A stretch of 46,777 nt of DNA from a virus: positions 1-46,777 of the IMG/VR virus record IMGVR_UViG_3300023175_001746, one strand, 5' to 3'. Made by a program: the position numbers and the translations under genes. Shown in pieces: positions 3 to 46,323 of the stretch (position 1 is the first letter of the stretch; each line of letters starts with the position of its first letter). The notes under the pieces are model-generated. The model did no database searches and was not told the DNA's origin. It worked only from the letters and a program-made list of their open reading frames with translations.

Positions 3-1559
3 GTTGGTGCAGGAATCGTTTCCACTGAGCCGGAGATAGATGGTGTCGTAAGACGTATGCCAACTGTCGCTGTCGTAGACGGTACACTATATCCTAGTTT
101 AGCATTAGAAACACTAAGAGTTATTGCAGGCGATCCTAACTTCCAAATCAAACTAAACGAGTTTGGTGTTGAAAAAATGCGTATTCCACAGTTTGGGCAA
201 ATACCAACTGACAGTGAAGGGCGTGTATGGATCGACTGGAGTCAACGTTCAAAACGTGTAAGTGTAGCAGACTTGCCAGATGACTTTGAAGGTGCAGTAG
301 TTATCGTAGATGTTACAGCAGCAGGTATTGCAAACCCTGTTCCTACAGCAACAGGCGCACAGTTTGCAGGCACTACGCAAGCCGCACTACTAGGTACAAT
401 GTTTGCAGGTACAAACATACAGCGTCCTGATTGGGCACCTACAGCAGAGCTTGTAGCACTAGCAGTAGGTGGATTGTTGCTAATACTATTAAGCCGTTGG
501 ATGTGGGTAGGACTTGCTACAACTGTCGTAATGATAGGTGGTGTTGTGCCTTATTCGATACATATGTATTCAACAGAAAAGGTTTTATTAGATGTTACAG
601 CACCTGTCATTACTTTGGTTATTATTGCGCTACAAGTTTATGGAATTAAGTTTGTACGTGAATTCCTTGAAAAACAAGCGATAAAGAAACAGTTTGCAGG
701 ATATGCTTCACCTACTGTTGTTAGACTACTACAAGAAAATCCTGCACTTATTAAAGATGGAATGAAGCGTAAGGTTAGTATTTGCTTTTCAGACTTGCGT
801 GGCTTTACTCCGCTAGGCGAATCGTTTGGTGATGATGTAAAAGGACTTACTAAAATAATGAATGGCTATATGGACAGCATTACACAGCCTATACTTGACA
901 GCGACGGAATGGTTATCAAGTATATTGGTGATGCAAGTATGCATGTTCATAATGCACCAACAGATGATCCTAATCACCCCGACACAGCAGTTCGTGTAGG
1001 ATTACAAATGTTAAAAGCAGTGGAGAAGTTTAATGAAGATTTTGTCATACCTCAAGGAAGACCTCCCGTTGGTATGGGAGCTGGCATCAATACTGGATGG
1101 GGCTATCTTGGAGAAATGGGTAGCACCAAACGACATTCGTACGATGTACTTGGGGACGCAGTCAGCACAGCCGCAAGAATCGAATCAAAGTGTAAAGAGT
1201 ACGGATGCTTGTTACTCGTTGGAGGAGACACTGTAGAGAAGTGTAAGGAAGATTGGTTCTTCCTAAAAGTAGACGACTTAGCAGTTAAAGGTAAAAGTGT
1301 CGGTATTCCTATCTACACAGTGTTAGACGTTAAGGGCACACCTGCACAATTAAAAAGTAAACAAATGCACGATCAGATGCACGAAGCATATAGAGCTCAA
1401 AAGTTTGATGAAGCAATTTATATTTGTGAAAGACTAAAAAGACACTTTGATGGTAAGATGGAACTATATTACAATATGTGGATTGAACGTTGTGAATTCC
1501 AAAAGACGCAAGACTTGCCTAAAGACTGGAACGGCGTATTTGTTGCTACAACTAAGTAG
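3..1559 (+). CDS. CHASE2-domain class III adenylate/guanylate cyclase (5' partial)
   Basis: The reading frame is open from base 3, so the gene starts upstream of the window; the ATG at 57 is internal. The first ~140 codons read as the C-terminal half of an extracytoplasmic CHASE2 sensor domain (GVVRR.P, YPSLALETLR). Three hydrophobic segments follow (about 450-510, 515-565 and 594-645), then a class III nucleotide cyclase domain (about 765-1330) and a short helical tail. Both metal-binding aspartates are visible (FSDLRGF near 786, YIGDASM near 923). The nucleotide-recognition block reads SYDVLGDAVSTAAR, where cyclases usually have DYTxxGDxVNxAxR: the transition-state Asn position is Ser and the purine-recognition Asp position appears to be Ser. 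It should be an inner-membrane protein making cAMP or cGMP, or a degenerate receptor. The 3' end overlaps the convergent minus-strand gene by 8 bp. The domain call is firm; activity is uncertain. Confidence 0.85.
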   Translation, partial: VGAGIVSTEPEIDGVVRRMPTVAVVDGTLYPSLALETLRVIAGDPNFQIKLNEFGVEKMRIPQFGQIPTDSEGRVWIDWSQRSKRVSVADLPDDFEGAVVIVDVTAAGIANPVPTATGAQFAGTTQAALLGTMFAGTNIQRPDWAPTAELVALAVGGLLLILLSRWMWVGLATTVVMIGGVVPYSIHMYSTEKVLLDVTAPVITLVIIALQVYGIKFVREFLEKQAIKKQFAGYASPTVVRLLQENPALIKDGMKRKVSICFSDLRGFTPLGESFGDDVKGLTKIMNGYMDSITQPILDSDGMVIKYIGDASMHVHNAPTDDPNHPDTAVRVGLQMLKAVEKFNEDFVIPQGRPPVGMGAGINTGWGYLGEMGSTKRHSYDVLGDAVSTAARIESKCKEYGCLLLVGGDTVEKCKEDWFFLKVDDLAVKGKSVGIPIYTVLDVKGTPAQLKSKQMHDQMHEAYRAQKFDEAIYICERLKRHFDGKMELYYNMWIERCEFQKTQDLPKDWNGVFVATTK

Positions 1560-2080: not shown

Positions 2081-2167
2081 ATGAATGAAATGAACGTTCC
2101 GCCGTATGCTATTAGTAAGAGCAACCACGGCGGCCTGCCGTTACTCTTACGTATTACTTTTTTTTAG
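2081..2167 (+). CDS. Possible 28-codon ORF over a hairpin
   Basis: A short plus-strand frame of 28 codons starts at ATG 2081 behind a purine-rich GGTAGAGGTG and ends at TAG 2167, in a gap between two minus-strand genes. Its coding region contains the strong inverted repeat at 2115-2150. It ends in two Phe codons over a T-run. Nothing else supports translation; the hairpin may be the functional element instead. Confidence 0.2.
   Translation: MNEMNVPPYAISKSNHGGLPLLLRITFF
2115..2150. repeat. Two-part inverted repeat / hairpin
   Basis: An outer 7-bp perfect stem (GTAAGAG 2115-2121 with CTCTTAC 2144-2150) encloses an inner 5-bp GC-rich stem (ACGGC 2127-2131 with GCCGT 2137-2141) and a 5-nt loop. 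On the plus strand a T-run (about 2158-2165) follows after a 7-nt gap, so it could be a weak plus-strand terminator. On the minus strand, where the neighbouring genes are read, there is no U-run, so a structural or processing role after the stop at 2154 is also possible. Confidence 0.6.
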
Positions 2168-2522
2168 GAGGTTCTTCTTTTTTAGGAGCAGCACCTGTTG
2201 AATCAAACACTTGACTGCGACTTTGATATTTGCTTACAATAGCATCTAATTCATCTATTTGATCTTTATCAAGATTTTTTTCTAATAAGTGTCTATGCTC
2301 TAACACCATTGAAAGTTTCATGTTCATGCGAATCATATCGTTGTCTAACATACGTACACGATCAACAAGTTTGATAAGAGTGCCCATAGTAGCACCAATA
2401 ATAGGGTCGATAGTTTCTGTCACCCACTTCCAAATAAAGTAGATAAAATATCCCATGCCCAGTGCGGCTACTATAGGAAATCCTAAGTCTTTAATTGTTT
2501 GTGCTAGATTGACTTCTTCCAT
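2154..2522 (-). CDS. Small membrane protein, holin-like candidate (122 aa)
   Basis: One hydrophobic segment near residues 14-34 (GFPIVAALGMGYFIYFIW), then a long amphipathic helix (LDNDMIRMNMKLSMVLEH) and a Lys/Pro-rich charged tail ending in KKK. The first ~70 residues are visibly paralogous to the protein at 2674-2952: GFPI.AAL..GYF.Y, a second weakly hydrophobic stretch, then a short coiled segment with an L-D-N/R-D pattern. The gene is the last of a three-gene minus-strand unit running from the late promoter at 2977-2984, opposite a CHAP-domain lipoprotein. That context suggests a lysis role (holin or spanin-like), but sequence alone does not prove it. Confidence 0.6.
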   Translation of the reverse strand: MEEVNLAQTIKDLGFPIVAALGMGYFIYFIWKWVTETIDPIIGATMGTLIKLVDRVRMLDNDMIRMNMKLSMVLEHRHLLEKNLDKDQIDELDAIVSKYQSRSQVFDSTGAAPKKEEPPKKK

Positions 2523-2681
2523 TTAGATTCCTAACCCAATTAAAAATCCAAATAGCATACCTAAGAAAAATATAGGTGTGCCGATGCTTAGAATAAATTT
2601 GTTGTCCTCTTTGGCCTGTGCATCTAGCCAAGCCTTGGTAGAATCATTCTGATTCTCGTACCATTTTTCCCATTTAGTCAC
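2523..2681 (-). CDS. Small C-terminally anchored membrane protein (~52 aa)
   Basis: Short protein with a charged Trp-rich N-terminus and a single strongly hydrophobic C-terminal segment (IGTPIFFLGMLFGFLIGLGI). I chose the GTG at 2681 because a perfect AAGGAGG lies 9 nt upstream; the in-frame ATG at 2690 directly abuts that ribosome binding site and is less likely. The start overlaps the end of the upstream gene (stop at 2674), so translation is coupled. It sits between two paralogous membrane proteins in a probable lysis cluster. Confidence 0.6.
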   Translation of the reverse strand: MTKWEKWYENQNDSTKAWLDAQAKEDNKFILSIGTPIFFLGMLFGFLIGLGI

Positions 2682-2952
2682 GTCTTGCATCCTCCTTACC
2701 TTCATTCGCTGCAATACGATCTACATTAGGTTTAACACCTAAAGTGTAAGATAGCAGTGCATCGATCTTGACTAGATCGTTGTTCATGGTTTGAACACGG
2801 TTGTCTAGTTGTCCAATGATATTTTTGAGAGTAGTGACCGAACCAGTCACGCCTGCTAGTATAAATCTTAGTGTAAGGTAAACAAAATATCCTGCCGCTA
2901 ATGCCCCTGCGATAGGAAATCCTACCTCACTTATGAGTGTTAGAAAATCCAT
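2674..2952 (-). CDS. Small membrane protein, holin-like candidate (92 aa)
   Basis: First gene of the minus-strand membrane-protein trio. An N-terminal hydrophobic segment (GFPIAGALAAGYFVYLTLRF) is followed by a shorter apolar stretch and a predicted coiled segment (LDNRVQTMNNDLVKID). It is a clear paralogue of the protein at 2154-2522. A GAGGGAA ribosome binding site precedes the ATG. The late box on the minus strand (2984-2977) would give a transcript starting near 2971, about 19 nt before the ATG. Expression with the divergent CHAP lipoprotein suggests a late lysis or envelope function. Confidence 0.65.
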   Translation of the reverse strand: MDFLTLISEVGFPIAGALAAGYFVYLTLRFILAGVTGSVTTLKNIIGQLDNRVQTMNNDLVKIDALLSYTLGVKPNVDRIAANEGKEDARRD

Positions 2953-3682: not shown

Positions 3683-4234
3683 ATGACTATCGAAGTAGGA
3701 ATGAAAGTTCCAAATATCACCTTTATGTATCGCGAAGGCGATGAAGCACCAGAAGCAGGCGGTTGTCCTATCGATGGTGAATTTGTAGCAAAGACTACAC
3801 AAGACTTGTTTGGCGGAAAGCGAGTAATTGTATTCTCCCTACCAGGAGCATATACACCTACTTGTTCAACTTACCAACTACCAGGTTTTGAAGAAGGTTA
3901 TGAAGAGTTTAAATCACAGGGCATTGATGAAATTTATGTTTCATCAGTTAACGACGGTTTTGTGATGAATGCTTGGGCAGGAGTACTAGGTATTAAGAAT
4001 GTTAAAGTTATTCCAGACGGTAACGGCGAGCTTGCTGAATCGTTTGGTCGTTTAGCAGACTTTAGTGCTGTTGGCTTTGGCAAGCGTTCAAAGCGTTTTG
4101 CTGTTATCCTAAATGACGGTGTTGTTGAGAAAGCATTTGTAGAACCAGATGCAACTGAAATGAACACTGATCCATATGGAGAGAGTGCGCCAGAAACTGT
4201 TATGGCATATCTAAAAGAAACAGTAGCAGCCTAA
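3683..4234 (+). CDS. Peroxiredoxin (Prx5/AhpC-TSA type)
   Basis: Thiol peroxidase of the peroxiredoxin-5 class, 183 residues, about the usual length. The active-site motif PGAYTPTCS is present with the peroxidatic Cys at residue 61, and the conserved Arg lies in KRSKRFAVIL. Such enzymes reduce H2O2 and alkyl peroxides in the cytoplasm using glutaredoxin, glutathione or thioredoxin. An AGGAGA ribosome binding site precedes the ATG. The gene has its own sigma70-type promoter and a terminator-like leader hairpin, suggesting separate control from the late lysis gene before it. The likely role is protecting the infected cell or phage enzymes from oxidative damage. Confidence 0.92.
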   Translation: MTIEVGMKVPNITFMYREGDEAPEAGGCPIDGEFVAKTTQDLFGGKRVIVFSLPGAYTPTCSTYQLPGFEEGYEEFKSQGIDEIYVSSVNDGFVMNAWAGVLGIKNVKVIPDGNGELAESFGRLADFSAVGFGKRSKRFAVILNDGVVEKAFVEPDATEMNTDPYGESAPETVMAYLKETVAA

Positions 4235-17676: not shown

Positions 17677-18870
17677 ATGAGTAGAAAGTGCATTGTCCCC
17701 TGGACACAAATGGAAATATGTGCAACTGGATCTATACGTCCGTGTGCTGAATATCATTGGGATATGAAAAATGACGACGGCTCTATGCTTGACTTTAATG
17801 ATCCTAACATTACTATACAAGATATATGGAATAGGCACGAATACATAAAACTACGTGAACAGTTTATTAATGGCGAAGAACCAGAAGGTTGTAAAAAATG
17901 TTGGCAACTTGAAGAACAAGGCAGCAAAAGTAGACGTCAGTATGAATTAGAAATGCACAGCAAGTATCTTGAAAGAACAGATACTATACACGCAGAAAAT
18001 CCTATCCTACTAGATTTAAAATTAGGAAATCTTTGTAACTTTAAATGTAGAATCTGCAACAGTGAATATAGTCATAATTGGAACGAAGATGAACTAGAAC
18101 TGTTTGGCAGACATATGAACAAAAACTTTGGAAAGGATTGGACTACTGATCCTAACAACTGGGAAGATATTAAAAATTTTGTTGACAAAGTAGAAACAAT
18201 ATATCTAAGCGGCGGTGAACCGTTTTTGATTGAAAAACACTTCGAGTTACTAGAACATATGATTGCAACTGATGTAGCAAAAAACATTCGCATAAAATTT
18301 GCTACAAACGGTTCTATAAAACTTAGTGATAGAATATTAAACTTACTTAGACAGTTTAGAGAAATTACTGTAATGTACAGTATAGATGATATTGGTAAAA
18401 ATTACGAGTATCAAAGACCGCCAGCACATTGGGAAGTTATAGAACGTAACTTTCGACATGCAATAGAGCAAGACTTTTTAGATATAAAAATTACTACAAC
18501 AGTTAGTATACTCAATTCGTTGAGTGGACAGCGTATAGAAGACTTTTGTGCAGAAGTAGGATTTTCGTTAGATGATGTATTTTTAAATTATCTAAGATCT
18601 CCACCGCATTATGATATTAGCATGTTAACACAACATCAGAAAGATTACCTATTGAGCAAACTAGGTAACGGTTACATAGACAGTGAAATTAAAAAATACA
18701 TTAGAACACAACATCACGATAAACTATCTGATAGTGGATGGGGCGTAGATAACAACGAACAATTAGATAAACTAAGACTATATATTATATCAAGTCTTGA
18801 CAAAAAGAGTAAACTTACACTTGAAGAAGTTAACAAAGACATTGCAGATTTAGTATATGGAAGAATTTAA
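17677..18870 (+). CDS. Radical SAM protein with twitch/SPASM-like N-terminus
   Basis: 397 residues. The radical SAM cluster motif CNFKCRIC (Cys120, 124, 127) and the SAM-binding YLSGGEPF motif are intact. Ahead of it is a Cys-bearing module (KCIVPW.QMEI, RPCAEY, GCKKCW) as in 'twitch' radical SAM proteins, which may hold an auxiliary cluster. The reaction is unknown; related proteins modify peptides or sugars. The ATG has no ribosome binding site, and GTTAAATA (17664-17671) ends 5 nt before it, so a leaderless late-type start is possible. The stop overlaps the glycosyltransferase-like gene start (TAATG), so the two work together. Confidence 0.82.
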   Translation: MSRKCIVPWTQMEICATGSIRPCAEYHWDMKNDDGSMLDFNDPNITIQDIWNRHEYIKLREQFINGEEPEGCKKCWQLEEQGSKSRRQYELEMHSKYLERTDTIHAENPILLDLKLGNLCNFKCRICNSEYSHNWNEDELELFGRHMNKNFGKDWTTDPNNWEDIKNFVDKVETIYLSGGEPFLIEKHFELLEHMIATDVAKNIRIKFATNGSIKLSDRILNLLRQFREITVMYSIDDIGKNYEYQRPPAHWEVIERNFRHAIEQDFLDIKITTTVSILNSLSGQRIEDFCAEVGFSLDDVFLNYLRSPPHYDISMLTQHQKDYLLSKLGNGYIDSEIKKYIRTQHHDKLSDSGWGVDNNEQLDKLRLYIISSLDKKSKLTLEEVNKDIADLVYGRI

Positions 18871-19661
18871 TGCAAATTGTTACAATCACTTGCAAGGACG
18901 ATTTCGATCTATGCCTATGGCAACTAAAAAGCATAGAAAAATTTTTAGAACCTTGTAAGATTAATGTTGTTGTTAATGAAGATGACAATTATACAAATGA
19001 TTGTAAGCGAGCTATTGCAGATCTCAATTTAAAATTAGATATTAGAGTTTGGTCTCAACAAGAAATATTACAACAAGAAGCACCGCACTTTAATGGTTGG
19101 GTAACACAACAACTTTTAAAACTTTTGATTCCGATTGATAGTGATTACATATGTCTTGACTGTAAAGATATTTTTGTAAAATCTACTTTGTTAGAAGACC
19201 TGGAGAAAAACCCAAGCGAACGTCAGCCAGATCCTAGGACAGGTCAGCCATGGTGTAGATTTTTTGATCCAATGGTGCAAATATTGTGGCGCCATTACAA
19301 AATAAGATTTAACAGTAAAAAACTAAATGGTATACAAACTCCAAGACATATACAAAAACAAGTAGTTGACGAAATACCAAAGATTTGGAAGGATAAATCT
19401 AAATTTATAAAATGGTGGGGCAGATTTGGTATGCCTAGTGAATTTATATTGTACGATAGTATAGAATTAATTTTAGATTTACAAAAGAAAAAAGGAAATT
19501 GTTTTAACAAAAAAGAAATCATTTCGTATTGGTATCCAGAAGAATTAGACTTTGACCTAATAGACGATAATACTAGGATTATAAAAATACATAGAAGAAT
19601 TTTTAACGACAAATATTGTTATCCTAAAGTTAAAAATTGGCTCAAAAAGATCTTGCATTAG
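18870..19661 (+). CDS. Glycosyltransferase-like protein (DUF6492-type)
   Basis: 263 residues with a GT-A-like layout: an N-terminal VTITCKDDFDLCLWQLKSIEKF that resembles nucleotide-sugar transferases, a central IDSDYICLDCKDIFV in the place of the DxD region, and PHFNGWVTQQLLKL as in DUF6492 proteins. Its TAATG overlap with the radical SAM gene implies joint expression, perhaps building or modifying a surface sugar. Very AT-rich coding with many Lys and Ile. The donor and acceptor are unknown. Confidence 0.6.
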   Translation: MQIVTITCKDDFDLCLWQLKSIEKFLEPCKINVVVNEDDNYTNDCKRAIADLNLKLDIRVWSQQEILQQEAPHFNGWVTQQLLKLLIPIDSDYICLDCKDIFVKSTLLEDLEKNPSERQPDPRTGQPWCRFFDPMVQILWRHYKIRFNSKKLNGIQTPRHIQKQVVDEIPKIWKDKSKFIKWWGRFGMPSEFILYDSIELILDLQKKKGNCFNKKEIISYWYPEELDFDLIDDNTRIIKIHRRIFNDKYCYPKVKNWLKKILH

Positions 19662-19681
19662 TATTTGTTTGATTGTATAAT
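19653..19681 (+). promoter_or_regulatory. sigma70-type promoter
   Basis: TTGCAT (19653-19658), 17-bp spacer, TATAAT (19676-19681). Predicted start about 19688, before the metallophosphoesterase gene. Confidence 0.75.
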
Positions 19682-19709
19682 AAAGTATAAATTAACAAGA
19701 GGTATTCAC

Positions 19710-20231
19710 ATGGCAGATATTTGGGTAATAAGTGACACACACTTTAACCACAGTGGCATCTTGACTTTTTCAGGTTATGATGGGAAGCCTGTGAGACCGT
19801 TTGATTCAGTTGAGCAAATGAACCAGTGTATGCTCGACAACTGGAATGACACAGTCAAGGATGGCGACACTGTTATTCACTGTGGCGATGTGTTGTTTGG
19901 TATGGACAAGGTTGCATGGATGGAAGCAAACTTTGCTAAACTGCCTGGCAAGAAAAAACTTGCATTAGGTAACCACGACAACATCAAGCATGTTGCACAG
20001 TTCTTCAAGGATGTACAATACTGGTACAACATTGATAATCTTGTGTTTACTCACATGCCTATGCACCCGCAGACTATGGCTGAGAACAAAAGATGGGGAC
20101 AGGACATTGTCAACGTGCATGGACACATTCACAGCAATCCTAGTCCAGACGGACCATACAAGTGTGTTTGTGTAGAGCAGATTAACTACACTCCGGTGAA
20201 CTTAGATGCTTTACGAACACAGATTGTATGA
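19710..20231 (+). CDS. Calcineurin-like metallophosphoesterase
   Basis: 173 residues from ATG 19710 with AAGAGG upstream; the longer open frame includes the promoter. All metal-binding blocks are present in order: SDTHFNH, HCGDVLFG, LGNHDN, FTHMP and VHGHIH. It is a compact cytoplasmic phosphoesterase that could hydrolyse nucleic-acid phosphodiesters, cyclic nucleotides or phosphoproteins. With a nucleotide cyclase in the same genome a cyclic-nucleotide substrate is conceivable, but this is inference. It overlaps the next small gene by 26 bp. Confidence 0.85.
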   Translation: MADIWVISDTHFNHSGILTFSGYDGKPVRPFDSVEQMNQCMLDNWNDTVKDGDTVIHCGDVLFGMDKVAWMEANFAKLPGKKKLALGNHDNIKHVAQFFKDVQYWYNIDNLVFTHMPMHPQTMAENKRWGQDIVNVHGHIHSNPSPDGPYKCVCVEQINYTPVNLDALRTQIV

Positions 20232-20403
20232 ATTTGAAAAGTGGCAGGGCGGTAGTATTACCGACAGACTTACCGCCCTTGCTACACCTAGACACGCAAC
20301 TTGGTATGCACTAAATGGTTGGACAGTGTTTGACTTTACTGCATCATTAGATATGGAGCCAGAATATTATGAAACTGAAGGATTTTCAACTCTTGGAAAC
20401 TAA
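20206..20403 (+). CDS. Hypothetical protein (65 aa)
   Basis: Small Trp-rich protein (WQGGSITDRLTALATP, WYALNGWTVFDF), unrecognised. ATG 20206 lies within the end of the metallophosphoesterase gene; TTG 20224 is an alternative start. It overlaps the next gene by 35 bp. Confidence 0.55.
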   Translation: MLYEHRLYEFEKWQGGSITDRLTALATPRHATWYALNGWTVFDFTASLDMEPEYYETEGFSTLGN

Positions 20404-20653
20404 AGTACCAAAAGGTGTACAAGCCGTACTTCAGTTTGACAACTACGAACTTAGCATTATCAACAATGAAGCATCTTATGGTAATAAGCAAGGCTTATAC
20501 GAAATTGCTGTATTTAAAGATGGTGAGCAGATCGAACTTCCGGGTGTTACCAATCCTGGAGATACGGTAAAAGGATGGTTGACAAACTCAGATGTTGATG
20601 CTATTATAAGTAAAATGTATTTTTTAACAGGCACAACCCCGAGGCAAATATGA
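20369..20653 (+). CDS. Hypothetical protein (94 aa)
   Basis: Beta-rich small protein (AVLQFDNYELSIINNEAS, YEIAVFKDGEQIELPG), then a helical tail. The family is unknown. GGAG lies about 9 nt before the ATG, and the gene overlaps the ligase start by 4 bp (ATGA), so it is translated with the ligase. Confidence 0.6.
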   Translation: MKLKDFQLLETKVPKGVQAVLQFDNYELSIINNEASYGNKQGLYEIAVFKDGEQIELPGVTNPGDTVKGWLTNSDVDAIISKMYFLTGTTPRQI

Positions 20654-21957
20654 GAACACAACCGCAAACTATTATTCGTAATCTAGAAGAAAACAACAGT
20701 CGTCTAGAAAAAGAAAAGATTCTACAAGTAGCAGCCGACGAAAGATTGCCAGAGTTTTTTGCAGGTTTGCGTATGGCATTAGATCCGCTTGTAACATTTG
20801 GTGTAAAACAGGTTCCTGTACGCTCTGATGTATTGACTGGACAAGGTCTTGCTTGGAATGTGTTTGAAGAACTTGCAAGACAATTACAAGAACGAGAGTT
20901 AACTGGACACGCGGCCCGCGATGCTATTGAACTAGCAATGGGTGTTGCTACAACTGAACAATGGAATGGCTGGTATCGTAGAATCCTTATCAAAGACCTA
21001 CGTTGTGGTGTAAGTGAAAAGACTGTAAACAAAGTAGTACCAGGCACTGTTCCTGTGTTTACTTGCGCTCTTGCTCACGACAGTGCCAAGCACGAAAAAA
21101 AGATGACAGGCAAGAAGCAGATAGAAATCAAACTTGACGGTGTTCGTGTACTAGCAGTATGTCGTGAAGGTAAAGTAGAATTGTTTAGTCGTAATGGCAA
21201 ACAGTTTCATAACTTTCCGCATATTATTGCAGAGATTGAACAAGTACTTGCAGAGAAACCTGCACCATATGACTGTGTGCTAGACGGTGAAGTAATGAGT
21301 GCTAACTTCCAAGACCTTATGAAGCAAGTACATCGTAAAGATAATGTACAAAGTGAAGATGCTGTTCTACACTTGTTTGACTTTATTCCATTAGCAGACT
21401 TTCAAAAAGGTATATGGGATAAACCACAAACTTATCGCAGTAACCTAGTCAAGTATTGGGTATTAGAAAATGAAAGCGTTTTAAAGCACGTACAAGCGTT
21501 GGACTGGGAAGATGTAGACCTAAGTACTCCCGAAGGTGAAAAACGCTTTGTAGCGTTAAATAAAGCGGCTGTAGACGGTGGATATGAAGGTGTTATGATT
21601 AAGGACGTTGATGCTCCTTATGAATGCAAACGTACTCATGCATGGCTAAAAGCAAAGCCATTTATTGAAGTAACATTGGAGGTTAAGGATGTCGAAGAAG
21701 GAACAGGACGAAACGAAGGACGCCTTGGCGCATTGGTATGCGCTGGAGAAGATGACGGACGAATGGTCCAAGTCAATTGCGGTAGCGGGTTTAGCGACAG
21801 CGATCGTGATAGTTTTTGGAGTAGTCGTAGCTCACTTGTTGGGCAGTTGGTAGAAGTTCGAGCAGACGCAATTACACAAAACCAAGATGGAACATACAGT
21901 TTGCGTTTCCCAAGGTTTAAAACATTTAGAGGTTTTGAGGTTGGAGAAAAAATTTAA
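20650..21957 (+). CDS. ATP-dependent DNA ligase
   Basis: 435 residues. Adenylation motif I is KLDG with the nucleotidyl Lys161, followed by FSRNGK (Ia), LDGEV (III), EGVMIKD (IV) and WLKAKP (V), then an OB-fold domain. An N-terminal helical DNA-binding region of ~150 residues contains the NGWYRRILIKDLRCGVSEKT block typical of T4-type ligases. It seals nicks using ATP, unlike the NAD-dependent host enzyme. It overlaps the small gene before it (ATGA) and the one after it by 17 bp. Confidence 0.95.
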   Translation: MRTQPQTIIRNLEENNSRLEKEKILQVAADERLPEFFAGLRMALDPLVTFGVKQVPVRSDVLTGQGLAWNVFEELARQLQERELTGHAARDAIELAMGVATTEQWNGWYRRILIKDLRCGVSEKTVNKVVPGTVPVFTCALAHDSAKHEKKMTGKKQIEIKLDGVRVLAVCREGKVELFSRNGKQFHNFPHIIAEIEQVLAEKPAPYDCVLDGEVMSANFQDLMKQVHRKDNVQSEDAVLHLFDFIPLADFQKGIWDKPQTYRSNLVKYWVLENESVLKHVQALDWEDVDLSTPEGEKRFVALNKAAVDGGYEGVMIKDVDAPYECKRTHAWLKAKPFIEVTLEVKDVEEGTGRNEGRLGALVCAGEDDGRMVQVNCGSGFSDSDRDSFWSSRSSLVGQLVEVRADAITQNQDGTYSLRFPRFKTFRGFEVGEKI

Positions 21958-22186
21958 GTATGTTCTTCACGAATTTAAAATGGGCGATGTAGAGGACGTA
22001 GAAGTCTACATCGCAGAACCAATTTATCAATGGCAACAAACAGAACACGGCAAATGGTGTAGTGAAAAAGCAACAAATATGCAATACCATATTAACCAAG
22101 ATTTTAACTCTTGGGGATACCATATTACTATCACAGGCGAGCTAAGTGGCAAACACGCAACCTTCTACGCACTCAAAAGAGCTTGA
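21941..22186 (+). CDS. Hypothetical protein (81 aa)
   Basis: Start placed at TTG 21941, which yields the coherent N-terminus MEKKFKYVLHEFKMGDVED; ATG 21992 would remove conserved-looking sequence. The pattern YVLHEFKMGDVEDVEVY.AEPIYQWQQTEHGKW is one I remember from small phage proteins of unknown role. It overlaps the ligase 3' end by 17 bp. The next promoter begins inside its last codons. Confidence 0.55.
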   Translation: MEKKFKYVLHEFKMGDVEDVEVYIAEPIYQWQQTEHGKWCSEKATNMQYHINQDFNSWGYHITITGELSGKHATFYALKRA

Positions 22187-22211
22187 CTTTTTGAGAAAGA
22201 ACATATATACT
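22183..22211 (+). promoter_or_regulatory. sigma70-type promoter
   Basis: TTGACT (22183-22188), 17-bp spacer, TATACT (22206-22211). Predicted start about 22218, with AGGAG in the leader of the gene at 22243. Confidence 0.78.
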
Positions 22212-22242
22212 AATAAAAATTAAACGTTAGGAGATTTATGAC

Positions 22243-23535
22243 ATGGCACTTCCCAGAGCAAAGAAAAAAGCACCAAGAGCCGCACCTCGTATCAAACGTG
22301 GCGCAAAACTTGCAGCACCTAGTTGGGACGGTTGGGAAACTTGGACTGGAGAGCAAGTCCATCGTCATAGAGAATATTGTAGATCATTTTATTACGAACA
22401 TTTTAAACCTGCAGATTTATATCCTGCAATTTATAAATGGATGGAAAAGAGTGGCAAATATTCTAAAGAACAAATAAAAAATGCTAAACTTGCTCCTAAT
22501 CATTCTGTAAGTATTACAAGTGCAATCGTTGCACAATGTTTCTTAGATGGTGCTCCGGACTATGTAAAAGTAGAAGATGATTATTGGCAAAGTCTTGCTG
22601 GTACAATGGGCGCAAAGAAAGGCCCAAGCGAATTCCTAACTTCAAAGATTGAACTATACATCGAAGCAGGTTCTAAAGTAGTAATTGAAAAGAAAGCAGA
22701 AGAAAAAGAAAAAGCAAATGTGTATGTTCCTACTATTCAAGAGCGTATTAGAGATCAAGCATTCGATATGTCCGAACCAATTGACGAGTGGCTAGAAGGC
22801 TGGGTAAATGATAAACAATCATTTGATCCTAAAGGTTTTGACTTTAAAGCATACTTTAAAAAGATTCAACCTAGTCAAGCACATGCTCGTAAAATGAAAC
22901 AGTTCTGGGCAATGGAACTAGTTGATTTTGATGAACTAGAGCGTATGCCTACAGCAGGACAACTCAAAAAAATGAGCGAACATGAGGCTGATATGTGGGC
23001 ACAACTCAAAGAAGGATACAGTCATTTAAAGAAAGCAGACATTGCAAAGTATCGCAAAGCAATTGAAACTGTAAATGCAGAGCTCGAGTTTATTATTGAT
23101 CAAGCAAAGGCAACACGTAAACCACGTAAGCCTAAAGCACGTTCAGCAAGTAAAATTGTTGAAAAGCTCAAGTTTAACAAAGCAGATGACAAATATTCTA
23201 TTGCATCAATAGATCCTACTACAATCGTTGGTGCAAGCGAACTTTGGGTGTTTAACACAAAAACACGTAAATTAGGCAAGTATGTAGCAAGTAATATTGA
23301 CCCTAGAGGTACTATGCGAGAAGGTAGTGGTTTGAGTGTAAAAGGCACAACTATTATCGGTTTTGATGAAAATCTAAGTATACAAAAGACTCTGCGTAAG
23401 CCTGCAGATCAGCTCAAAGAGTTTAAATCTGCAGGGAAAGTTGCATTACGTAAGTTTTTAGATGAAATTAATACTACAGACATTAAATTAAACGGAAGGT
23501 GTAATCCTGATACGGTACTTCTCAAGGTTAGCTGA
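22243..23535 (+). CDS. Hypothetical phage protein (430 aa)
   Basis: Starts with a very basic, Ala/Pro/Lys-rich tail (ALPRAKKKAPRAAPRIKRG), followed by a helical body with many Lys and Glu, and a C-terminal domain after a second basic linker (KATRKPRKPKARSASKIVEKLKFN, about residues 287-308). AGGAG lies 9 nt before ATG 22243; a second ATG at 22238 belongs to an unrelated frame. I cannot name the family; nucleic-acid binding or a virion-associated DNA-packing role would suit the basic segments. It has its own early-type promoter and precedes a fibre-like gene with a late box. Confidence 0.65.
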   Translation: MALPRAKKKAPRAAPRIKRGAKLAAPSWDGWETWTGEQVHRHREYCRSFYYEHFKPADLYPAIYKWMEKSGKYSKEQIKNAKLAPNHSVSITSAIVAQCFLDGAPDYVKVEDDYWQSLAGTMGAKKGPSEFLTSKIELYIEAGSKVVIEKKAEEKEKANVYVPTIQERIRDQAFDMSEPIDEWLEGWVNDKQSFDPKGFDFKAYFKKIQPSQAHARKMKQFWAMELVDFDELERMPTAGQLKKMSEHEADMWAQLKEGYSHLKKADIAKYRKAIETVNAELEFIIDQAKATRKPRKPKARSASKIVEKLKFNKADDKYSIASIDPTTIVGASELWVFNTKTRKLGKYVASNIDPRGTMREGSGLSVKGTTIIGFDENLSIQKTLRKPADQLKEFKSAGKVALRKFLDEINTTDIKLNGRCNPDTVLLKVS

Positions 23536-23541
23536 TAAATA
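23534..23541 (+). promoter_or_regulatory. Late promoter box GATAAATA
   Basis: T4-like late element overlapping the stop codon of the previous gene and 24 bp before the fibre-like gene at 23566. Confidence 0.7.
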
Positions 23542-23565
23542 CTGTATAATGAACAGGAACCTCAG

Positions 23566-24651
23566 ATGACTGATATACGCAATAGTTTAGAAACGCTGGC
23601 AACAGCGATAGAAGATTTACAAAATCAACCTGCACCAGAGCCTAAAATTAATGATAGGCAACTGTCAGGCAATAAGATACATGGTGGTAGAATTACTGAA
23701 TTCTCAAGCAAGGGAATTAAAGATAAAGCAACAGACTATGTTCTTACAGTAAATGATGACGGAATACACGTTGATGTAGCACAAATTAAAACTATTGCAA
23801 ACGACTTAGCAGTCAACGGTGACCTAACTGTTCAAGGTACTGTACATGCACAGCGTATGCACGTAGAAGAAGTTACAGCAGACATTAGAAACGAACGAAC
23901 TGATCCTCTACAGTTTATTGGCAAATCTAATAAAACAGCATACGGAAAAGGCCTTATATGGCCAGGCGGTGAGTACACTAAACAATTTATTTTGCAAGAG
24001 CGTCCGGATAGATTTTTTGCTACAGAAAGCATAGAGCTACGTGGCAATAAGATCTATATGATCAATGGACAAAATGTTCTAAGTCAAGAAGCATTAGGTA
24101 CTACAGTTACAAAAAGTAACCTAAAAAGTCTAGGAACATTAGAAAGCCTAACTGTTGACGGTCATGTTACTATTGATAACTTTATTAACTATGATGCAAA
24201 TACACAACGTATAGGCATTGGCACCGATGCTCCTAACGGCACAGTATCTGTTGTAAGTTGGGATCATGAGTTTGTAATTGATCATACAGAAGAACGTAAG
24301 TTTAAAATTGGTACATATACAACTGGCGCTATAGACATTATTACTGATGATACTGCACGTATTAGTGTAGAAGCAAATGGCAACATCACTGTACATAATA
24401 AAACTGTCTTTAAAAATACCGTAGGTATAGGTGTTAAAAACTATGCAAATGATGCTGATTTAACTGTTGCTGGTCCTGTGCGTTTTCAAGATAAAAAGTT
24501 TGAAGTTGGCAGCGAAGTACCCGAAGATGGAACTTATAAAGTTGGTGATGTAATTTGGAATTCCAAGCCTAAGTCGGGTGGACACGTTGGTTGGATATGT
24601 GTTAGAGCAGGTACTCCTGGCACATGGAAAACTTTTGGTCCTATCTCATAA
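23566..24651 (+). CDS. Fibre-like virion protein (361 aa)
   Basis: Elongated structural protein: an N-terminal coiled segment (IRNSLETLATAIEDLQ), then repeated short beta elements typical of trimeric phage fibres (LAVNGDLTVQGTVHAQ, LTVDGHVTIDN, RISVEANGNITVHNKTVF, DLTVAGPVRFQDKKFEV), and a compact C-terminal domain (TYKVGDVIWNSKPKSGGHVGWICVRAG). It follows a late box, consistent with a virion role such as a side fibre or fibre tip. Confidence 0.7.
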   Translation: MTDIRNSLETLATAIEDLQNQPAPEPKINDRQLSGNKIHGGRITEFSSKGIKDKATDYVLTVNDDGIHVDVAQIKTIANDLAVNGDLTVQGTVHAQRMHVEEVTADIRNERTDPLQFIGKSNKTAYGKGLIWPGGEYTKQFILQERPDRFFATESIELRGNKIYMINGQNVLSQEALGTTVTKSNLKSLGTLESLTVDGHVTIDNFINYDANTQRIGIGTDAPNGTVSVVSWDHEFVIDHTEERKFKIGTYTTGAIDIITDDTARISVEANGNITVHNKTVFKNTVGIGVKNYANDADLTVAGPVRFQDKKFEVGSEVPEDGTYKVGDVIWNSKPKSGGHVGWICVRAGTPGTWKTFGPIS

Positions 24652-24680
24652 TACATATACTAAATTCTCTAATATCTCAT

Positions 24681-24688
24681 CATAAATA
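24681..24688 (+). promoter_or_regulatory. Late promoter box CATAAATA
   Basis: Ends 6 bp before ATG 24695; with T4 geometry the transcript starts at about 24694, leaving almost no leader. Confidence 0.55.
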
Positions 24689-24694
24689 ATTGTG

Positions 24695-25015
24695 ATGAAA
24701 AGGTTTAAAAAGATTATCAATCAATCCCGTTTATGGGCTTACGCGGCGTGGACAACGCCGTTTATTGCCTTAGCAATTCTGTTGACAGAAGAATTCTTTT
24801 ACCAAGAATTAATAGGTATTACTTCAAGTGTCATTGTAATAATTTTTATAGCCGTTAGTGTGTTCTGGTGGTGGTGGGCTTTGGATAAAATAGTATATAT
24901 GATAAAATGTGCTAAGAAAAACGAAGAAAGTTTTGAACACATTTTAGAAGAGCTAAAACATTCTAAAAAGATGATACGAGAGATGATACAAGATGATAGT
25001 GATAGGCAACGGTGA
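24695..25015 (+). CDS. Two-TM small membrane protein (106 aa)
   Basis: A basic N-terminus, two hydrophobic segments (about residues 15-32 and 40-62, the second ending VFWWWWALDKIVYMI), and a charged helical tail. The topology suggests both ends in the cytoplasm. ATG 24695 is preferred to GTG 24692. A late box lies directly upstream. A holin or superinfection-exclusion protein is possible, but no motif decides. Its 3' end overlaps the next gene by 23 bp. Confidence 0.6.
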   Translation: MKRFKKIINQSRLWAYAAWTTPFIALAILLTEEFFYQELIGITSSVIVIIFIAVSVFWWWWALDKIVYMIKCAKKNEESFEHILEELKHSKKMIREMIQDDSDRQR

Positions 25016-29491: not shown

Positions 29492-32400
29492 ATGGCAAAA
29501 CAAGACATTGATATTGGTGTTGAGGGTAATGACGGAACCGGCGATAGTATTCGCGAATCCTTCCGTAAAGTCAATGAAAACTTTCAAGAACTTTATGCTG
29601 TATTTGGCGCAGGCGGCCAAATTAGTTTTACTAACTTAGGTGATACACCTACTAACTTAGATCCAAGAAAAATACTTCTTGTAAACGATAGCGGTACTGC
29701 ACTTGAATATCAAGAACTTGCTAGTGATAGTGCAAAAGGAACAGGCGATCCAGATAGTATTACTATTAGTTATGATATTGCCGGAAAGATTATTCTTTCA
29801 ACAGCATTTAGAGCCGTATCACAAGACTTGTCACCTACACTAGGTGCTCCATTAGATGCTGATGGTAGAGGTATTGCAAAAGTAGCAATTAACCAGGCAG
29901 CAGTTAACGAATTTAACGCAACACACCCAGGTGATGATATTACAATCGATGACTTAGTTATTACAAAGGGGTTTGCAGACAACCGATATATTGCAGGCGA
30001 ATTACCAATACGTGTTGACGACGAACCAGCAGATGCTTCAGAATACACACTGGTTGTTGAAAGTTATACAGACGGTAATATTACCGTTACAGATCACGGA
30101 TTTGATAATACTATTAACGGCACACCATATGTGTTTAACGCAGAAGATACAGATCCGTCAAATCTTGTTACAGGCACAACGTATTATCTAAGATATGCAA
30201 GCCCGAGCCAACTTAGTGTTCATAGAACAGAGGCAGGCGCTCTTGATGATACAGATCAGGCATTTATTACATTTAATATTGCAGCAGACGATACTCATAC
30301 GTTCGTTGATGCTGGATTTGATTCTAATCTAAAAGGCTTTTTCCTATCAAACGAGGCAATGCCTCGTAAGAGCATTGTAAGACGTCAGGGCGATGTAATG
30401 ACAGGTCCTCTTGTATTACATGATAGCCCAGGAGAATTGTCAGGATTAACAACTAGTCCAGAAGATTTACAAGCAGCAACTAAATTCTATGTAGACAACA
30501 CTAGTTATTCTAGTCCACAAAACTTATATGTTAGCACAACAGGCGACGATAAGATGCGTGGTGTACCAAGTGGTAAAGAAGGTACTTCCTGGAGCTATGC
30601 ATTTAGATCAATCAATGCTGCGGCACGCCGTGCAGAAGAAATGATCAAAGCATCTGAAGCTGAACCAGGTCCTTACTTCCAAACTATTACAAGAGACAAT
30701 GGTGCTGCTAATGCTGAAGTTGTTTCAGTTGGTATTAACAATCCTTTATTTGGACAAGCAAGAAATCTAATTGAAGAAAACAGAGAATTTATCATTAGAG
30801 AAATTACTGCTTATTTAAATTTTGAATATCCAGAATTCGAATATAACATCAAACTTTGTGAAAGAGATTTAGGACTTATTTTAGATGCGATTGCATTTGA
30901 CATTAACCGTTCACCCAGTTTAACAGAAGCTACAGCAAATAGTTTAACAAGACGTGCCGCAGAAAGATATTATAATAGTGCAAGTGGTAGAATTGCAATT
31001 GGTAGACAGTTAACTGAAACTGTTGATGCTATCGAAACTGCAAGAGATATTGTAGAACAAATTTTACAAAACAGACGTTTCCAGCAAGGGTCTGTATCTA
31101 GTATTTCACAGAGTGCTATTTGTACAGTAACAACTGTTGTTAATCACGGATTTGTAGATAAAAATATTGTTTATATAGAAAACGTATCAGGAATGACACA
31201 GATTAACGATGCGTTTTATTATATTAAAGTTACAGGTCCTAGAACCTTTGAATTGTTTACTGACGAAGATTTAGAAATACCAGTAAACAGTGTAGGCTTT
31301 GATCAGTATTCGGGTCAAGGTAGTTTTGGTCTAGTTTATCAAACAGACAATAAGCAATTTATTGATGCAGGCGATGATGCAGAAGCAGTAGCACGTCAAG
31401 CAGTAGTTGACAAATTTAATCTTGTTGTTAATATTATTACAAATGGTATTGATGCTGGTGCATCTACAGCATTTGGTAAAACATATCGTGTTATTGTAAA
31501 CAACGGTGGACTTGTTGCTACTGACCAAGGTAATATTGATAATAGAGATGTATTGCCAGGTAAAGTACTTGTTGGTAAAATTTCAGGTGCGCAAGGTCGT
31601 GTTGTAACATACAATCAAAACGATGCAAACTTTAACGGTAATGACAATGTTGAAGTACATCTATTAAAGCCAATTGACTTTATCGAAGGTGAAGATCTTG
31701 AATACGGTAACTTTGTTAACACAGAACAAGTAACAATCTTTATTGAGTCAGGTCAGTATACTGAAGATTATCCAATTAAAGTTGCTGCCAACGTTTCACT
31801 AAAAGGTGATGAATTTAGACGAGTAATTGTACGTCCTAAGAGACGTGTTTCACAATCACCATGGGCAGGAACTTACACTTATCGTGACAAAGAATTTGAT
31901 GGATTAGAAACATCAACAGGCGGCGCCAGATTTTATAATCAAACAGGTGAGTGGCAAGGTTACTTTGGATATCATTATCTAACTAATCCTGAGAAGGTTG
32001 TTAATACTGGTGTACCTGTAAATAACGTAGGTGAATTTACAACAGCCGCAAATATAATTACAGAAAACAGAGAGTTTATCCAGAACGAAGTAATCGAATA
32101 TATCAATCAAAATACACAAGATTTGTTATACGATAAAAACCAGTTCGGCGAAGACATGTTAGCTATACTATCAGGTATAGGATATGACATTGTCTTAGAT
32201 AGTACATTTAACGCTAGACGACTAGGCCTAAAGTTTCAAAGAGAAAAAAGCATTTATCGAGATCAACAGTTAAAAGATATATGGGTAGTAGCACTAACAG
32301 AAGCTAAAAGACTAGTAGCAGGACTTCCGGCAGTATCTAGTTCAAGTGATGCAACCTCAAGAGCAAACGCTGCATTTGATACTATTATTACTATTATCGA

Positions 32401-35400
32401 AGATGGAACTCTTGACACTGATAATGCAACACTAATACCAGTATATAATACTGTAAACACTACAGATCCAAATGAAGAAGCAGCTAAAAATAAAATTCTA
32501 GACAACATAGAATTTATTGCTGCTGAAGCATTAACATATCTAACAACTAACTATCCAAGAAAGTTCTTTAACGAAGACATTCGTTTACGTGATGCACGTA
32601 ACATGTCATACGCTCTTGCATATGACATTATGTACGGTGGTAATAGTGCAACAGTAGATTTTGTAAAAGATTACTTTATTGGTGACGAACTTCGTTTAGA
32701 AATTGTTTCTAGAGAACCAACACTAGAAATGATTACTCATATTAAAACTGTTATAACTTCTGTTGTTAGAAATATTGCTGTTATTCCTACTACAGGAAAT
32801 GCTATTGCACAAGACATTTCAGGCACACCTGCAACAGCAACAGAAGCAACTACAATAGGATTGTATATTGATATTATATTTGATCAAATTAATAACAATA
32901 ACTTGTTGAACATTCCAAGTACAACATTCCCTAGTTTGATCGGTTTGAACAGTGCTTTAATAGATGCTAAAACAGGAATCGATGGCGGAGCAACTTCAAT
33001 TAGAGATGCTTCGATAACAGTAGTTGATGCAAGTCCTGAAGCAGTATTCACATACAACCAACTCAAATGTAAAAGAGATGTTGGATTAATTGTAGATGCT
33101 CTAGCAAAAGACTTAGAAATAGGTGGCGACGAATACTCATTAGAAGTACAAGGCGAATACTTTGATAGTTATATTTTAAAATATAACAACGGAGGCTTTG
33201 GCGGACAAGAAAACGTTACTAAAAATGCTATAGAATTTACAGGAATTGTAATTGCAAGATTATTCCAAGGTAACTACAATCCAAATGACATTTGGCAGAA
33301 TCCAAATGATAGTTCTTATGTTGAACCTGACTTTAAATTTGGTACAGCAGAACTTGGCACAAATATTATTGTTAATAATTTAATTGATAGAATGGTATTT
33401 GCGTTTGATAGACGTTACAATCCACCAAAACGCAACGACGAGATGGATGTGTTCTTGATGAACGATGCAAGTATCTTGCGTAACATGACTGTACAAGGAC
33501 ACGGCGGATTCCTTTGTGTTCTTGACCCAGCAGGACAAATCCTAACTAAATCACCTTATGTACAAACAGGTTCATCATTTAGTAAAAGTATTAACGAAAA
33601 AATATTTGCTGGTGGTATGTTTGTTGACGCTTATGTTGGTAACTTACCTGCAACTATTCCTACAACAATCGATGTTGGTAATGGGGTTGAAAGCGGCAAG
33701 ATTAATAACTTTACATTGTGGATTCGTTCTGAAGAAGGTCAAGGCCTGTTTATTAGACCACCAGAACTACCATGTCCATTCTACTTAGAAGGTAGACGTT
33801 TCCAAGTTAACGCTATATCAGATTATGACCAAGGCAACGGTTGGTGTAAGATTTATCTAGATACTACATCAAATGACGGAAATGGTTTCGACGAAACATT
33901 GTTCGAAGAACGCCCAGGAGATATTTATAGAGACATCTTCCTACAAACAGCTGGTAACCGTTCAATGCTTGGTAACGACTTTACACAGATCAACGACTTA
34001 GGTTATGCTCTTGTTACTACAAACGGTGCGTTCTCTGAGATGGTATCTATGTTTACATACTACTGTCATGCAGCATACTATGCAGCAAACGGTTCAGAAA
34101 TTAGATCACTAAACGGTTCTAACGGTTATGGTAACTTCGGTCTTGTTGCTGAAGGCGCTGACCCTAACGAGATTCCTGATCAAGTTACATACGCAGGCGA
34201 CATGACATTTGCTGCAAGAACTGTTAGATGGTTTGAAGAAGGTGACTTTTTAAACATAACAAACTCTAACAGTATACATGTAACTGATTTAAAACGCTTA
34301 CCAGAGCCCAATTCAGTACTTACAATCAACCATCCTGGTGCAGCAGGCACATTACAGTATGGTATTAGTGTAATCTCTGACTACGGTGACGGTACTAATG
34401 CTGGTGATAAAGTTGTAACAGGTGTTCATACTGTAACTGGCATCGGAGCAGCTGATGCAAGCAGAGCACAAGGAACTTACACAGCAGTATCAGCCGACGG
34501 CGATTTAAAAGGTGCAACATTTACTGTTACAGTTGACGGCTCAGGTGCTGCAACAATTACTGTAGTTGCATGTGGTGAAGGATATACAGACGGTGATTCA
34601 TTAACCATTCTTGATTCAGATCTAGGAGGCGGCGGCGCTGCTGACTTAGTGTTTACTGTAGATAAAGTATATGGTTCAGATGGAACTAGTGTAATACCAA
34701 CTGGTAGATATTCTAACAAAATTTATAAACTACAAATTACAGGAACTCCAGAAGGTACAAACGGAGACTTCTTTAGCCAAGTACAAGAAGATATTGCAAA
34801 CGGCTTAGTAGCAGAATATAGACATAGCGAAACACACAGATTTGATAATATTAGAAGTCAAAATAGACTTGTAACTCGTCCAAGTACTGCTATTAACTTT
34901 GACGAAAGTGATGAAATTACATATCGTTCTATTGCGTTTAGTGCATTTGACAGTGCAGGCGAAGGCTTAGCAGATGATCAAATTACTGTTACATTTGAAG
35001 TAGAATACGATCATGTAGAATTAGCTGTTGATTCAAACAACATTGGTGGCGGCAAAGGTGGAGCAGAAGGTGATTTAACGATTGCTGTTAATCCGGCTGC
35101 AGAAGGCTTTGTATTAGATGACAACGAAATTACTCGTTTACAAACAGATATCAACGGTAATCTTCCACCTGCAACACTTCAAAATTTAAATGCAAGTTCT
35201 TTAGTACAACGCAACATTAACTATGTACAAGAAGAGACACTAGCATTTGTTGACGCAAATACTCCTCCAGCAGGAATGGATAGAGACAAGTGCTTTAGAG
35301 ATGTTGGTTATATTGTAAGTGCAATTGATCACGATATTCGTCATGGTGGTAATGCTAAGACTGTTGAAGCAGCATTATCATACTGGGATGGTGCAACAAG

Positions 35401-45792: not shown

Positions 45793-46323
45793 ATGCTTAT
45801 GAAAACTGACGAACTAGGTATTCCACGATTCTCTAACCGCGATCTTATCGATATGATTTATAGTGGTCATGCGGATAAGATGCATGTTGTACTATGTGAT
45901 CCAAGTGATGACATAGACCGTTTTAATGCGGCTATGGAAGAACAAGGCTTTAACAAGCTACAGAAGTATATCCCATTAGATGTAGATCAAAAGACTTTTG
46001 ACGGTGTATGCCAAAGTGAATGGTTTATGCCTGATGAATACAAAGACATTAATGTATATGAATATGTCCTAGGCAAAGCAAAAACACCTTGTCCGCAACA
46101 TGTACAAGATCGCATATGGGAAGAATTAGATGCTTTCAAAGAACGTGATATGCACAACTTATTACGTTACATGATTTATCTCGTAGACTTTATGCGTGAG
46201 AATAACATTGTGTGGGGTGTAGGACGTGGATCAAGTGTAGCAAGTTATGTGCTGTATTTGATAGGTGTACATCGTATTAATTCAATCCAGTTTGACCTGG
46301 ATTGGAGAGAGTTCTTGAGATAA
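45793..46323 (+). CDS. DnaE-like fragment (bacterial DNA polymerase III alpha segment)
   Basis: 176 residues. The C-terminal third (YLVDFMRENNIVWGVGRGSSVASYVLYLIGVHRINSIQF) matches the segment of DNA polymerase III alpha around the conserved GRGS motif that begins the palm, including the following 'F.L.FEREFL'-like end (LDWREFLR). The catalytic aspartates that lie downstream in DnaE are absent, and so are PHP, fingers and tail, so it cannot be a polymerase by itself. It may be a stand-alone nucleotide-binding or decoy domain acting on the host replisome. It appears leaderless from its own promoter. Confidence 0.75.
   Translation: MLMKTDELGIPRFSNRDLIDMIYSGHADKMHVVLCDPSDDIDRFNAAMEEQGFNKLQKYIPLDVDQKTFDGVCQSEWFMPDEYKDINVYEYVLGKAKTPCPQHVQDRIWEELDAFKERDMHNLLRYMIYLVDFMRENNIVWGVGRGSSVASYVLYLIGVHRINSIQFDLDWREFLR

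Follow-up and report, generated by a model that had tools for sequence, protein, structure and literature searches.

A phage-encoded CHASE2 receptor cyclase with a remodeled active site

The DNA analyzed here (a linear viral record of IMG/VR with 46,777 bases, henceforth the window) starts with a gene for a CHASE2 receptor cyclase. Genes of this kind are known in phages; the variant of the active site that it encodes was detected, in our sample, in viruses only. We favor, with slightly better than even confidence, the view that the remodeled protein is a catalytically competent receptor cyclase that most likely makes cAMP from ATP, with a FecR-domain protein as its partner and a receiver of the signal in the host.

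A membrane receptor cyclase truncated by the window edge

The reading frame at 3-1559 encodes 518 amino acids and is open at its 5′ end. Its product matches CHASE2 (PF05226, E 1.5e-15) and the class III cyclase domain (PF00211, E 3.7e-16, over the cut-off), and neither match is due to chance. An earlier note on this DNA, which had described a CHASE2 receptor cyclase, is borne out in this respect. Because the Pfam search aligned profile positions 106-254 of PF05226 only, the N terminus must be missing. Full-length relatives have about 684 amino acids; one of them (L002), 85% identical to the product, has 166 additional residues made of an N-terminal helix and the remainder of CHASE2. The arrangement of a CHASE2 receptor, with membrane helices on both sides of the sensor domain, is therefore found, the N-terminal helix being visible only in L002. 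A C-terminal tail follows the cyclase domain. The coordinates of the gene and of relevant residues and neighbors are given in Table 1.

Table 1. Coordinates of the receptor cyclase, its domains and catalytic positions, and the adjacent companion genes.
Feature	Position	Strand	Basis
CHASE2 and class III cyclase receptor, 5′ part missing (518 of ~684 residues)	3..1559	+	Pfam PF05226 and PF00211; phrog_35576, E 2.7e-131
Periplasmic CHASE2 sensor domain, C-terminal part, residues 3-159	9..479	+	PF05226 profile 106-254
Membrane-spanning helices from CHASE2 to the catalytic domain, residues 145-212	435..638	+	hydropathy; helices in the model
Catalytic domain, residues 254-441	762..1325	+	PF00211; Foldseek 3r5g, TM 0.88 by target length
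D264, first metal Asp, intact	792..794	+	alignment, invariant
K306, base-recognition Lys, intact	918..920	+	alignment
D310, second metal Asp, intact	930..932	+	alignment
D381, base-recognition Asp, present (Ser or Thr in bacterial relatives)	1143..1145	+	alignment
S388, replaces transition-state Asn	1164..1166	+	alignment
R392, transition-state Arg, intact	1176..1178	+	alignment
Small single-pass protein, phrog_18771, module companion	2154..2522	-	phrog match
Small single-pass protein, phrog_18771, paralogue of 2154-2522	2674..2952	-	phrog match

An AlphaFold2 model of the cyclase (mean pLDDT 81) has class III cyclases as its PDB matches: CyaB (3r5g, TM 0.88) and CyaC (1wc3, TM 0.84), both by target length. 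Besides PF00211 and the fold, the product has the two metal Asp residues and a base-recognition pair (Lys and Asp) characteristic of class III, while only Arg392 remains of the transition-state pair, as Asn is replaced by Ser388. Assignment to the family rests on the fold and the other residues, since Ma1120, discussed below, shows that the Asn is not obligatory. The protein should work as a homodimer, with its catalytic domain in the cytoplasm. Models of PycC in PADLOC matched the cyclase at 1.5e-14 or weaker, which is within the shared cyclase fold, and an effector gene was not seen in the window annotation. For a Pycsar identity, this amounts to similarity at the fold level only.

An Asp is gained and an Asn is lost in the active site

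The block SYDVLGDAVSTAAR, found in the product of the frame, had been read as a replacement of both the purine-recognition Asp and the transition-state Asn by Ser. The alignment of the Asp, Asn and Arg positions that the earlier note proposed, made with the 29 closest alphaproteobacterial and 9 planctomycete homologues, corrects one half of this reading and upholds the other. The base-recognition column contains D381 (in SYDVLG) of the phage product, Ser in 29/29 alphaproteobacterial and Thr in 9/9 planctomycete homologues. By this alignment, the phage cyclase has gained an Asp where its bacterial relatives have Ser or Thr. Ser379, located two residues before D381, lies on a column that is usually Asp and is not among the catalytic positions. 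In turn, S388 (in VSTAAR) does align to the column of the transition-state Asn, and Arg392 is intact.

Among the matches listed, at least 143 viral sequences carry Lys306, Asp381, Ser388 and Arg392. Ser and Asn at the two variable positions are found in at least 82, including Pelagibacter phage HTVC008M, and Thr and Asn in at least 7; one sequence is cut before the site. Readable alphaproteobacterial homologues (n = 66) comprise 61 with Ser and Asn, 3 with Thr and Asn and 2 of other types; Asp381 or Ser388 occurs in 0/66, and the D381/S388 type is absent from the 75 readable bacterial homologues. The window and Methylophilales phage Melnitz share the Asp and Ser site, whereas HTVC008M has the Ser and Asn of bacteria.

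The variant has a single origin and is strictly conserved

A cyclase tree was built without columns 381 and 388; branch support comes from a quick search, and finer branches are less sure. Viral cyclases form one clade (SH-aLRT 99) that adjoins alphaproteobacteria. Sequences of the Asp381/Ser388 type likewise make up one clade (SH-aLRT 100, branch 0.47), whose nearest neighbors are viral sequences with Thr and Asn. On this tree, the variant arose once, inside viral cyclases of the Ser/Thr and Asn type, and in the sample examined it is confined to viruses.

Residues D264, K306, D310, D381, S388 and R392 never vary in the clade (143/143 sequences among the matches listed), which spans, among the same matches, 47 lineages under 80% identity and 15.1 substitutions per site. 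The dN/dS ratio between the window cyclase and its nearest relatives is 0.10-0.16. In the catalytic domain, 26 positions are specific to the clade among the matches listed, for example D305I, A314H, W316H, N371E, L/F378H, D379S and L389T; three of these changes (A314H, W316H, L/F378H) have gained a His. A site that has been rewritten and then held unchanged suggests a working rather than a dead enzyme.

The cyclase gene belongs to phages

The search of marine phage contigs proposed in the earlier note found the gene beside phage markers on many records. A scan of viral contigs yielded at least 180 relatives of the cyclase on viral stretches. Among the matches listed, contigs that carry relatives with the same flanking genes reach 364 kb, and many cyclase records also have a T4-type capsid gene or a fragment of a jumbo-phage polymerase. 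Two cultured phages encode related cyclases: Melnitz (QZI94387.1, 57% identity to the window product) and HTVC008M (AGE60353.1, 36%). Hence, the claim that the gene is phage-encoded stands on viral contigs with the same flanks, on cultured phages and on capsid and polymerase markers. Two matches in genome_contigs, from Rhodobacteraceae and Pirellulales assemblies, have neighbors of the phage locus including phrog_18771 and are most likely binned phage contigs. Among matches labeled Acinetobacter phage MD-2021a, the one record opened (CAKLQH020000011.1, L084) is flanked by bacterial housekeeping genes and looks like mislabeled bacterial DNA.

The window also carries tail-fibre and baseplate-type proteins, an ATP-dependent DNA ligase and seven tRNAs. 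One reading frame on the + strand (29492-39907) has 3,471 residues, with matches to families of tail fibres and baseplates in the first third. At 45793-46323 (+), a protein of 176 amino acids matches DNA polymerase III alpha only over the start of the NTPase domain. The best named matches of this fragment are phages of about 285-490 kb, and similar short proteins occur on 18/26 records with the cyclase or a companion protein; such phages may commonly have their polymerase gene split or reduced. A distant nucleotide search with window positions 17677-25000 against named phages gave no match. The matches of the polymerase fragment, the size of cyclase contigs and the capsid genes make it probable that the window stems from a very large marine phage.

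Curli operon and neighboring genes

In relatives, the cyclase gene ends an operon with the order csgF-csgG-curlin-FecR-curlin-cyclase. Among 91 loci of the window type with at least 6 kb upstream, the exact order is found in 66/91 and FecR in 89/91. The window lacks the curli genes, presumably because the contig end cuts before them. A Fis-type HTH protein is encoded divergently upstream of csgF in 20/89 loci of the window type (for example, L002:1392-1652 and L007:2466-2693, both on the - strand) and is a possible regulator of the curli operon; as it occurs at 20/89 loci only, it was dropped as a general part of the module.

Companions of the phrog_18771 family are present in 75/78 loci of the window type and in 16/17 loci with Ser and Asn. 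A reverse search with the protein encoded at 2674-2952 found the cyclase in 21/21 loci with full 10-kb flanks, a sample biased to close relatives. This protein is more conserved than the cyclase (81% versus 57% identity to Melnitz). A peroxiredoxin-like protein (PF08534), encoded at 3683-4234 (+), is conserved beside the cyclase in several relatives. Of the adjoining genes in the earlier note, the membrane genes were confirmed as encoding small membrane proteins, and lysis is represented by a cell-wall hydrolase (NlpC/P60-CHAP) that matches phage lysin families.

A metallophosphoesterase (19665-20231) had been suggested as an enzyme that degrades the cyclic nucleotide. This link is not supported: the gene is 18 kb off, not adjacent, and present on 13/23 records only, and its sole NCBIfam match, below the cut-off, is PdeM, a DNA-repair phosphoesterase. 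Occurrence, distance and weak resemblance to a DNA-repair enzyme speak against it as a partner phosphodiesterase. The gene lies shortly before that of the ATP-dependent DNA ligase (both within 19665-21957, +), an arrangement that recalls ligase-associated repair pairs.

Phage FecR proteins carry a FecR domain. In L002 and Melnitz, the only hydrophobic segment is N-terminal and signal-like, so that both look periplasmic; the FecR of HTVC008M is below the hydropathy threshold. In 20 alphaproteobacterial genomes, a FecR domain lies within 3 kb upstream of CHASE2 and on the same strand in 7/55 cases, versus 0.09 expected, and in 4 more pairs the gap is longer, consistent with FecR reading frames that are themselves long. 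Phage FecR queries gave no match beside bacterial cyclases, while the Pfam FecR model did recover pairs. It is plausible that FecR is the periplasmic partner of CHASE2, a contact that gene order alone suggests. Passages of PMC9599517 give a different reading, in which FecR is an iron-dependent regulator.

Proposed activity and product

From the architecture, the residues, the single origin, the conservation and the operon described above, we infer an activity, a product, a partner and a receiver as follows. The frame at 3-1559 would be the truncated last gene of a phage curli (T8SS) module, and its product a membrane receptor in which helices connect a periplasmic CHASE2 domain to a class III catalytic domain in the cytoplasm. 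One change from Ser/Thr and Asn to Asp381 and Ser388 yielded an adenine-recognizing Lys-Asp pair and dropped the transition-state Asn. During infection, and controlled by a signal from the envelope, the presumably competent enzyme would most likely convert ATP to cAMP; its periplasmic partner would probably be the secreted FecR-domain protein that the operon also encodes, and the signal would pass through a cAMP receptor of the host. A host receptor would be needed because the phage records lack a cNMP receptor of the usual family: a search of 23 records, some of which are fragments, gave no match to the cNMP-binding domain (PF00027).

Loss of the Asn need not kill the enzyme, as Ma1120 of Mycobacterium avium, with Lys, Asp, Ala instead of Asn, and Arg, is an active adenylyl cyclase (PMC4215837). 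Restoration of Asn (A164N) drastically decreased its AC activity and gave no GC activity (PMC4215837). This precedent and the invariance of all other catalytic residues argue for an active enzyme, and the Lys306-Asp381 pair argues for the use of ATP. Conservation, on the other hand, demonstrates function and not which reaction takes place, and the many further changes in the active-site region (D305I, A314H, W316H, L/F378H) make a different product possible.

An active cyclase whose remodeled pocket takes another base, with cGMP, cCMP or cUMP as product, is in our opinion rather unlikely. The clade-specific block around the active site (the three gained His, D305I and D379S) fits this explanation, and pyrimidine cyclases occur within class III, the PADLOC PycC models matching weakly and by shared fold. 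However, Lys306 and Asp381 make the adenine-reading pair of known adenylyl cyclases, and guanylyl cyclases carry Glu at the Lys position (PMC4215837). A related, doubtful speculation takes the D381/S388 clade for a cyclase of viruses only, which has altered catalytic chemistry or makes another cyclic nucleotide and is coupled through periplasmic FecR to the phage curli pore or fibre; if true, infecting phages would read the envelope of the host with a sensor-to-second-messenger circuit of their own. Given the loss of the transition-state Asn in every clade member, the protein might also be catalytically dead, a receptor or decoy that turns nothing over and only binds nucleotide, partner or signal. 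The earlier note had contemplated this explanation, which we consider quite unlikely: the metal Asps, Lys and Arg are invariant in 143/143 listed sequences over the whole depth of the clade, when a dead enzyme should lose some, dN/dS is about 0.1, and Ma1120 is active without the Asn.

The cyclase might time lysis or host takeover instead of serving curli, its position in the operon being secondary. Lysis timing has been proposed for the phage curli pore (PMC9004378), the NlpC/P60-CHAP hydrolase lies downstream of the cyclase in the window, and at a few loci the curli genes have the opposite orientation to the cyclase. Curli genes are, however, nearly universal beside the cyclase, and the hydrolase is found at some loci only, which makes this role very improbable. 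As for a chimera of host DNA fused to a phage contig, against which the earlier note had cautioned, the contig end does cut the gene and its nearest cellular relatives are alphaproteobacterial. Its likelihood is nevertheless negligible: the same gene and neighbors lie inside many independent viral contigs, viral sequences are a clade of their own, and the genomes of the two isolates that carry the cyclase already refute it.

If the cyclase is active, as we favor, phages would answer an envelope signal with a second messenger of their own making. In the ocean, the curli module of phages is widespread, and the functions proposed for it in the literature include aggregation, import and the timing of lysis. 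Its cyclase lends itself to assays of the purified protein, and the fixed Asp/Ser site leads to a sharp prediction about its chemistry. The HTVC008M and Melnitz types offer a natural pair for comparison.

Comparison with known systems

That a phage carries such a gene is not new: passages of PMC9599517 report, in 2022, a curli module with an adenylate cyclase in pelagiphages. The presence of csgF and csgG in phages had been reported in 2020 (in parts of PMC7029224), and Melnitz was described in 2022 together with a lysis-timing proposal (in parts of PMC9004378). Passages of PMC9599517 also mention a histidine kinase before csgF in podoviruses and do not discuss the Asp/Ser variant. In a term search of main texts, CHASE2 did not appear in that of PMC9599517, nor 'cyclase' in those of PMC9004378 and PMC7029224, as far as these texts were covered. 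A literature search of incomplete coverage found no paper on curli in jumbo phages.

The T8SS cyclases of HTVC008M and Melnitz are of the same family and occupy the same place, after csgF-csgG-curlin-FecR-curlin (passages of PMC9599517); the window differs in that it probably comes from a much larger phage. Alphaproteobacterial CHASE2 adenylate/guanylate cyclases such as CyaD1, CyaD2 and CyaK of S. meliloti have the same architecture, and perception by these three involves the outer-membrane protein NsrA (PMC13001267). Those sampled here are at most 38% identical to the phage cyclase, have Ser or Thr with Asn, and lack detectable curli genes beside them. Burkholderia has an operon with a FecR protein and a CHASE2 kinase (PMC5192318); its CHASE2 protein is a histidine kinase and its FecR protein also has LysM, but an exported FecR-domain protein is likewise found beside a CHASE2 sensor, in a system linked to biofilm. 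Ma1120 (PMC4215837), studied as a soluble construct, has Ala and not Ser in place of Asn; like the phage cyclase, it reads the base with Lys and Asp, keeps the Arg and has replaced the transition-state Asn.
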